From positions 124,001 through 188,000 of the forward strand of contig MGOY01000014.1 in the NCBI GenBank assembly GCA_001797275.1: 64,000 nucleotides of DNA. The letters run 5' to 3'. How positions within the stretch are numbered: position 1 is the first letter of the stretch; the number at the start of each line of letters is the position of its first letter. The notes beneath the pieces were generated by a model, which searched no databases, was not told the DNA's origin, and saw nothing but the letters and a program-made list of their open reading frames with translations. Shown here in pieces: positions 1,623-44,857 of this stretch. A program made the position numbers and the translations under genes. The DNA is from Clostridiales bacterium GWF2_38_85 (lineage in GTDB: Bacteria > Bacillota > Clostridia > Oscillospirales > CAG-382).

Positions 1623-1651
1623 TTGACATTCTAAGTTGCACGGGTTAAAAT
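1623..1651 (+). promoter_or_regulatory. Sigma-A promoter of the Nudix gene
   Basis: TTGACA (1623-1628), 17 nt spacer, TAAAAT (1646-1651). The -10 box overlaps the ATG at 1650, so that ATG cannot be the start on this transcript. Confidence 0.6.
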
Positions 1652-1685
1652 GGACATTATTTGTGTTTATTTGGAAGCTTCAAGT

Positions 1686-2117
1686 TTGAGAAAAATCGAT
1701 TTACGATTCAATGAAGATAATAAACTTTTTGGTTTTCGTAGTACTGGTGTGTTAATTCACAACGGACGGATATTGATTCAAAGGGGCGTTGACGATACTG
1801 AATTTGCTTTACCGGGCGGTTGTGTTGCTTGGGGTGAAACGAGTGCTGAAACTCTCGTGCGTGAATTTAAAGAGGAACTTGGTGTAGATATAGTTATTAA
1901 AAGATTAATATGGGTTGAAGAGGTTTTTTGGAAATGGGGAGATAAAAATGCTCACACTCTTTGCCATTATCATTTGATTGCTTTGACAGATGTTTCACAG
2001 ATACCCAATGAAGGTATTATTAAGTCTTTAGAAACGGATGAATCAAGATTGTTGTTTCAGTGGGTTGATATTAATAAACTTGGCGGTTATAATACTATTT
2101 CTCATAAGAAACAATAG
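1686..2117 (+). CDS. Nudix hydrolase, 3' end displaced by an inserted element
   Basis: Nudix-fold hydrolase, expected to cleave a nucleoside diphosphate linked to another moiety. The Nudix box is intact: G-x5-E-x7-REFKEELGV, within 'GGCVAWGETSAETLVREFKE'. An ATG at 1650 extends the frame, but it lies inside the -10 box of the only visible promoter, so a TTG at 1686 (product starting RKIDLRFNEDNKLFGFRS) is preferred; this choice is uncertain. The normal frame ends at WVDINKLGGY; the last codons (NTISHKKQ) come from the R1 repeat inserted at ~2092. The native C-terminus is found after the element at 2194-2271. The catalytic core is complete, so the shortened protein may still be active. Substrate unknown. 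Confidence 0.75.
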   Translation: MRKIDLRFNEDNKLFGFRSTGVLIHNGRILIQRGVDDTEFALPGGCVAWGETSAETLVREFKEELGVDIVIKRLIWVEEVFWKWGDKNAHTLCHYHLIALTDVSQIPNEGIIKSLETDESRLLFQWVDINKLGGYNTISHKKQ

Positions 2118-2193
2118 AAAAATTCTTCGAGAAAGACCGTAAAGCAAGGACTTTTCCTCAAATTTTATCACTGTTTCTAAATCGAATTAGTAT
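2092..2193 (+). repeat. R1 inverted-repeat element (MITE-like), copy 1, inside the Nudix gene
   Basis: About 102 bp, starting ATACTATTTCTCATAA and ending ATCGAATTAGTAT, with a central hairpin region (GAGAAAGACC / GGACTTTTCCTC, imperfect). It aligns along its full length with the copy at 16706-16808. Removing it, with a TATA duplication, restores the Nudix frame as GGY-KIYPEF. There is no coding capacity; it is probably mobilised in trans. Confidence 0.85.
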
Positions 2194-2271
2194 AAAATAT
2201 ATCCTGAATTTCTAAAAGACAAAATAATAAATATAACCGATGGTATTGAGCACTTTATTACTCGTGAGTAA
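2194..2271 (+). pseudogene. Displaced 3' end of the Nudix gene
   Basis: Read in frame, this stretch gives KIYPEFLKDKIINITDGI followed by EHFITRE and a TAA stop. 'YP-x-FLK' and 'IEHFI' are typical of the C-terminal helix of Nudix hydrolases. Joined directly to GGY at 2089 it completes the Nudix protein, so it is the coding tail cut off by the R1 element. It has no ribosome binding site of its own and a stop codon (TAG at 2188) lies just upstream in this frame. Confidence 0.85.
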
Positions 2272-2285
2272 TAGAAGATTTGAAA

Positions 2286-2320
2286 AAAGACCTACCGAAA
2301 ATAAATCGATAGGTCTTTTA
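2286..2320 (+). terminator. Intrinsic terminator of the Nudix transcription unit
   Basis: Stem AAAGACCTACCGA (2286-2298) / TCGATAGGTCTTT (2306-2318) with one mismatch, followed by TTTTAT. Its position just after the displaced Nudix stop supports the view that the original gene ended at 2271. Confidence 0.8.
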
Positions 2321-11581: not shown

Positions 11582-11613
11582 TTTATTCTAATTCGATTTT
11601 GAAACAGTATTAT
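11582..11613 (-). repeat. R1 repeat fragment in the subtilase leader
   Basis: Read on the minus strand this gives ACTGTTTCAAAATCGAATTAGAATAAAA, closely matching the right end of the R1 element at 2172-2198. Only the terminal ~30 bp is recognisable; it lies in the 5' untranslated region of the subtilase gene. Confidence 0.55.
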
Positions 11614-11701: not shown

Positions 11702-11807
11702 TATATAAAACTAACAAATGAATTGTGATTTTATTAATTTGAAAAAAGCCAAAGAGTATAGGCTTTTTCAAATTGCTTAGGTAATTCATTTGTTAGTTTC
11801 ATATAAA
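11702..11807. repeat. R2 palindromic element, copy 1
   Basis: About 106 bp with terminal inverted repeats of ~22 bp (core AACTAACAAATGAATT, perfect in both arms) and a central hairpin TTTGAAAAAAGCC / GGCTTTTTCAAA with loop AAAGAGTATA. The second copy is at 44724-44829. There is no coding capacity. Both orientations of the central hairpin end in a T-run, so it may act as a bidirectional terminator. Confidence 0.85.
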
Positions 11808-13731: not shown

Positions 13732-13757
13732 TTATACTAATTCGATTCTGAAAAGTA
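13732..13757 (-). repeat. R1 repeat fragment after the DUF4434 gene
   Basis: On the minus strand this reads TTTTCAGAATCGAATTAGTATAA, the right end of R1 (compare 2176-2194 and 16788-16810). It sits a few bases beyond the stop codon of the lipoprotein gene. Only this terminal part is recognisable. Confidence 0.55.
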
Positions 13758-13760
13758 TTA

Positions 13761-16696: not shown

Positions 16697-16705
16697 ATTA
16701 ATATA

Positions 16706-16808
16706 ATACTAATTTCTCATAAAACATTACGTTAAAACTCTGCGAAAAAACCATATAGTAAAGGTTTTTTTCTTGAATTTTATCTATGTTTTTAATCGGA
16801 ATTAGTAT
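16706..16808 (+). repeat. R1 inverted-repeat element, copy 2
   Basis: About 103 bp, starting ATACTAATTTCTCATAA and ending TCGGAATTAGTAT: terminal inverted repeats ATACTAATT/AATTAGTAT. The centre folds as AAAAAACC-n10-GGTTTTTT. Flanked by TATA on both sides, as at copy 1. It lies between a promoter and a small ORF, lengthening that leader. Confidence 0.85.
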
Positions 16809-16870
16809 AAGGTAAAAGTATATCTTTATTTGTTCAAAACAGCATTGAATGAATATTAGGAGAGCAGGGA

Positions 16871-23710: not shown

Positions 23711-23856
23711 CTCTCTTTCATTATAGACTCGCTAAAATACAAATCCCTCATAAAACATTTTAATCGAGATAAGTACAGAGGCTGCAACGAAATGAAATTG
23801 GAAGATCGTTGCAATTAGGTGCGAAATATCGCAAAGCCCCTTTTATGCGGCATAGT
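23711..23856 (-). ncRNA. Candidate L21 leader (r-protein autoregulatory 5' UTR)
   Basis: About 150 nt between the promoter and rplU that can fold: on the minus strand GCAACGA ... TCGTTGC (7 bp, around 23777-23810) and TGCGA-tat-TTCGCA near 23820-23835. Firmicutes rplU genes commonly carry an L21 leader element bound by L21. The position and structure fit, but I could not check the family consensus. Confidence 0.5.
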
Positions 23857-44635: not shown

Positions 44636-44723
44636 TTGTGTTTTTGCATTTTTTATTTAAAAAATCAGATCAATATTTGTCACTAACTGATATTGCATTT
44701 TTCTCAAATTTATTTATACTGAT

Positions 44724-44829
44724 ATATATTAAACTAACAAATGAATTGTGATTTTATTAATCATGAAAAAGCCATGAAGTATAGGCTTTTTCATGATTGT
44801 TGGGGTAATTCATTTATTAGTTTTATATA
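44724..44829. repeat. R2 palindromic element, copy 2
   Basis: Same ~106 bp layout as 11702-11807: arms AACTAACAAATGAATT / AATTCATTTATTAGTT and a central 15-bp perfect stem AATCATGAAAAAGCC / GGCTTTTTCATGATT. The stem differs from copy 1 at paired positions, so pairing is kept. It lies after comF and before the permease gene and may end the comF transcript. Confidence 0.85.
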
Positions 44830-44857
44830 GGTATATTTTTAACTTATATGAGGTTTT

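Follow-up and report, generated by a model that had tools for sequence, protein, structure and literature searches.

At one locus in the window (the whole stretch of 64,000 nucleotides analysed here), the reading frame of a Nudix hydrolase gene runs into a short inverted repeat and ends there, while a frame resembling the missing end of a Nudix protein begins immediately behind the repeat. This arrangement raises the question of whether a mobile element has entered the gene and, if so, what this element is, where exactly it begins and ends, and which enzyme might have moved it. The repeat is referred to below as R1, and the coordinates of the features discussed are collected in Table 1.

Table 1. 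Features of the window that bear on the interrupted Nudix gene and on the repeats R1 and R2.
Feature	Position	Strand	Basis
5' portion of the Nudix hydrolase gene (residues 1-147)	1650..2091	+	PF00293, E=1.6e-12; Nudix box GGCVAWGETSAETLVREFKEELGV intact
Target-site duplication TA, left copy	2090..2091	.	Flanking 2-bp repeat (TA) in 34/38 copies; no repeat of k>=4
R1 element, 101-bp imperfect hairpin MITE, ATACTATTTC...GAATTAGTA	2092..2192	+	41 genome matches; ends from 38 aligned copies; hairpin z -2.2
Target-site duplication TA, right copy	2193..2194	.	38-copy alignment; single TA in the empty nitroreductase orthologue site
Nudix 3' end cut off from the rest of the gene, KIYPEFLKDKIINITDGIEHFITRE and stop	2195..2271	+	Gap-free at the junction against C-termini of homologues L050-L053
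Terminator-like hairpin downstream of the original Nudix stop	2285..2319 (approximate)	+	MFE -15.4 kcal/mol, z -4.6 for 2272-2330
25-bp R1 remnant in which the two ends are joined and the interior is missing	11586..11610	-	Sequence comparison with R1 copies
R2 copies	11702..11805; 44723..44830	-	Near-perfect hairpin, z -11
27-bp R1 remnant	13733..13759	-	Gapped pattern search
Second full R1 copy, subfamily B	16706..16807	+	74% identity to the copy at 2092-2192; TA at 16704-16705 and 16808-16809
Decayed R1 subfamily-B remnant, ends approximate	23743..23772	+	Resembles the 42-bp remnant at C14:234822

The Nudix frame opens with an ATG at 1650 and, after the residues GGY, continues for eight codons of R1 sequence before it meets a stop at 2117; that it runs into the repeat and stops there had been stated in the original prediction. 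Both the Nudix domain and the Nudix box are present in the interrupted gene. Removal of 103 bp (R1 and one TA) restores the frame, joining GGY to KIYPEF, and the tail then closes at the TAA at 2269-2271. The restored protein aligns with homologues from other genera (L050-L053, 38-44% identical) without a gap across the junction, and the tail motif IYPxFLK...HFxxR is conserved between them, so the downstream frame is indeed the Nudix C-terminus. The genes of these homologues contain no R1 insert, which argues against the 102 bp being conserved coding sequence; the sole genome of the same genus gave no match to the Nudix gene. As the truncated frame keeps the whole Nudix box, one might suppose that it ends naturally at 2117 and that the frame behind it is unrelated. 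This is hardly credible, however, because the frame behind R1 agrees with the C-terminal ends of several homologues, and does so in phase once R1 and one TA are taken out.

Insertion of R1 in the C-terminal part of the gene means that translation now ends eight codons inside the element, the last 25 native residues being replaced by NTISHKKQ. To call the gene split, as was done originally, is an overstatement: about 85% of the protein survives intact, the Nudix box included, and nothing but the C-terminal tail is missing. The suggestion that the event was recent is not supported either: the copy has no private bases, but when the copies were compared its identity to any other one did not exceed 92% (92-93% for the best matches of the genome search), and a tail of 25 codons can stay open by chance. 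A terminator had been proposed behind the tail, and a stable hairpin does lie there, but a terminator scan made no call at it. The insertion also completes a TATAAT hexamer, giving TTGATA-17-TATAAT at 2065-2093 on the forward strand (11/12 consensus, sigma-70-like), which by its match to the consensus is a possible promoter directed into R1.

A search of the 2.83-Mb genome with positions 2080-2280 as query gave 41 matches (best non-self E=2.5e-38). After curation about 38 full-length copies remained, 71-93% identical to the one in the Nudix gene, typically about 101-104 bp long, non-coding and ending in ATACTA and TAGTA. In their alignment the outer ends are constant and the flanks mostly unrelated, so that R1 is dispersed as a repeat in its own right rather than through segmental duplication. 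The second full copy in the window had been described as identical in layout to the first, which is correct for the layout but not for the sequence. Most copies are intergenic, as judged by rough ORF calls on 1-kb stretches. The species is represented by one genome, and 62 further genomes from its family, including one from the same genus, gave no comparable match; two 33-bp stretches found among them (E ~5e-4) were taken as chance. Exact 23-mers of R1 had no match in the genome contigs of 84,980 species, with its own genome left out, nor in viral contigs.

The copies also fix the ends of the element and its target. An identical 2-bp repeat flanks 34 of the 38, parsed as TA-ATACTA...TAGTA-TA, and the dinucleotide is TA at both ends in 33; a flanking repeat of at least 4 bp occurs in none. 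The original prediction had placed fixed ends on an element of about 102 bp and had excised it with one copy of TATA. The ends are indeed fixed, but at 101 bp (2092-2192), and a 4-bp TATA duplication is rejected, as none of the 38 copies supports it; excision with TATA yields the same joined sequence only because TATA is what happens to precede the element. The expectation of a TA target, as in the IS630/Tc1 group, was borne out. An A follows the right TA in 32 of the 38 copies, and may be either a mild target preference or part of the R1 end. In four copies (L035, L038, L039 and L040) the left TA falls within the codon that terminates the upstream ORF (gap -2), and the first base of R1 regenerates TAA; by a rough reckoning this is about as frequent as chance would allow in AT-rich spacers.

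Two further genes are interrupted by R1. One copy lies near codon 25 of a nitroreductase gene, which is recognised as PF00881 after joining; in the same-genus genome (G001) the homologous gene runs through unbroken. Its site reads GAAAATAGA, against GAGAATA-[R1]-TAGG in the present genome (G000), and the two align without a gap once one TA is kept. This empty site with a single TA independently fixes the ends of R1 and its target, and it is stronger evidence than the protein alignment of the Nudix gene. The other copy interrupts the ORF of an ISL3-type transposase (zinc ribbon PF14690) in its N-terminal portion; a within-genome empty site was sought through this transposase, and its other matches end short of the insertion point. 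A further copy (L031, joined as EVVVDVVG/TPVIELAS) is not claimed as an interrupted gene, there being no spanning ORF of 60 amino acids.

Copies of R1 fold well, with z values from -2 to -17, and most of them lie between genes, so one could think of R1 as a conserved RNA regulator or a terminator instead of mobile DNA. We consider this very improbable. R1 lies inside three genes, its TA target is duplicated, the empty site in the same genus contradicts such an origin, R1 is absent from relatives, and Rfam gave no match. Compensatory changes are few as well: one pair in subfamily A, where covariation hardly exceeds that of shuffles, and four in subfamily B against 2.4 expected, which correction between hairpin arms would also explain. 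R1 is thus short, non-coding and multi-copy, has terminal inverted repeats and a target-site duplication, and is missing from an orthologous site, as is characteristic of MITEs. We are highly confident that R1 is a non-coding, non-autonomous MITE which would be moved in trans by a TA-duplicating DDE transposase, and one copy of which has truncated the Nudix gene; a non-coding inverted-repeat element inserted in this gene is also what had been predicted.

The family is not uniform in structure. In one copy (L042:438-538) the inverted repeat is perfect over 45 bp around a 10-nt loop (-62 kcal/mol), unlike in its quasi-palindromic relatives; this copy may either preserve the ancestral state or have had its arms corrected by template switching. 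Five copies of 125-151 bp (L026, L029, L033, L036 and L039) contain an extra internal hairpin, and in some of these long copies stem bases change and yet stay paired (CTAATTGT-AAT-ACAATTAG versus CTAATTCC-AAT-GGAATTAG).

At the other extreme are pieces of 22-48 bp in which hardly anything but the two R1 ends is left. Apart from the full copies, the genome has about nine such sites (among them L096, L107-L109, L112, L114 and L116), and the window contains further, more decayed ones. Most came from a gapped pattern search that gave 10 hits against 6 for a backwards control, and a short hit was for this reason counted only if its letters matched the R1 family. Five of the nine correspond exactly to the beginning and the end of a single full copy put together, overlapping by 0-5 bp, as at the direct repeat ACTaTTTCT/ACTgTTTCT; a sixth is one base short of such coverage, and the fit is poorer for those at C3:59216, C14:137733 and C17:134. 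The simplest account would be that these remnants are internal-deletion derivatives, produced by deletion between short repeats and helped by hairpin formation, and that R1 copies may decay in this way into pieces of 22-48 bp. It is quite unlikely that the 22-30-bp versions, besides being decay products, are themselves mobile; if they were, they would be among the smallest transposing DNA known.

As to the enzyme, the TA target and its duplication point to the IS630/Tc1 group, and a transposase of this type may have moved R1 by cut-and-paste, inserting it at TA and duplicating the TA. A single PF13358 (DDE_3) transposase was found in the genome (L118), and none in the other 62 genomes of the family. 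The IS630-type element to which it belongs is about 1.14 kb long (L118:1715-2853, G000:C8, about 118.2-119.35 kb) and has inverted TATATATAACTAAC ends. Its transposase is encoded in two ORFs that overlap, the first with the HTH and the second with DDE_3, and is probably expressed by a programmed frameshift; the genome contigs held no close relatives of it.

A second MITE family, R2, was likewise found in this genome only, in dozens of near-palindromic copies of about 108 bp. It resembles R1 in size and in a central hairpin of the AAAAAGCC...GGCTTTTT type, but is the more regular palindrome, and its terminal sequence, TATATAAAACTAA..., differs from that of R1 and matches the ends of the IS630 element (p<=0.0005 against its right end in strict comparisons). 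The best value for the R1 ends was p=0.004, in one of eight comparisons with loose gaps, and it is not significant after correction for eight comparisons. Since its ends match R2 and not convincingly R1, the resident IS630 probably serves R2, and it is not clearly the insertion sequence with termini matching R1 for which the original prediction had suggested a search.

It might nevertheless be that R1 too was mobilised by this IS630, as proposed for RUP and IS630-Spn1, and that their ends have since diverged. On one hand, the two share the TA target, the only one of 63 family genomes with an IS630 is also the one with R1, and the right end of R1 aligns loosely with the left end of the IS, GATTTAG being common to both. 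On the other hand, the clear match is that of R2, and IS630 relatives of the class that have recognisable termini mostly show ends of the TATATA or TATAA type. We regard this as a tentative explanation, a little short of an even chance. Alternatively, R1 may have been moved by another insertion sequence, a second IS630 or another TA-duplicating type, which is now lost or missing from the assembly, and to this we give about even chances. The R1 ends are uniform and distinct from those of R2, and the assembly is a draft (47 contigs, 96% complete); repeats such as insertion sequences are often missing from draft assemblies. Against it, genome searches for exact or near-exact R1 ends found no insertion sequence or transposase that carries them. 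The TA-inserting DDE transposase that we favour would be the resident IS630, if it acts on diverged ends, or else a partner that has been lost or is absent from the assembly.

The closest parallel is RUP of Streptococcus pneumoniae, which like R1 is short (about 105 bp) and folds back, with terminal inverted repeats and a TA target, and which also occurs in dozens of copies that are mostly intergenic, sometimes inside genes and largely restricted to one species (PMC2229807, PMC3049150). Pneumococcal RUP has also been reported inside IS transposase genes (PMC2229807). The host differs, however; the ends of RUP match IS630-Spn1 whereas those of R1 have no clear match in the resident IS630, and R1 adds the 125-151-bp variants with an extra hairpin and the 22-48-bp remnants. 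The Correia/NEMIS elements of Neisseria are likewise short, with terminal inverted repeats, TA at their termini and a stem-loop transcript (PMC2229807), but they have been described with an IHF site and with promoter or RNase III roles (PMC2229807, PMC3049150). By analogy of size, ends, TA target, foldback shape, copy number and species restriction with what is described for RUP, R1 appears to be a new MITE family that may work like RUP.

Existing knowledge of MITEs is unchanged by R1. What this case offers is a fully bounded insertion, a matching empty site (in a related species, though at a different gene) and a series of decay products, which together are useful for studying the entry of foldback MITEs into genes, and their exit, in a lineage that has received little attention.
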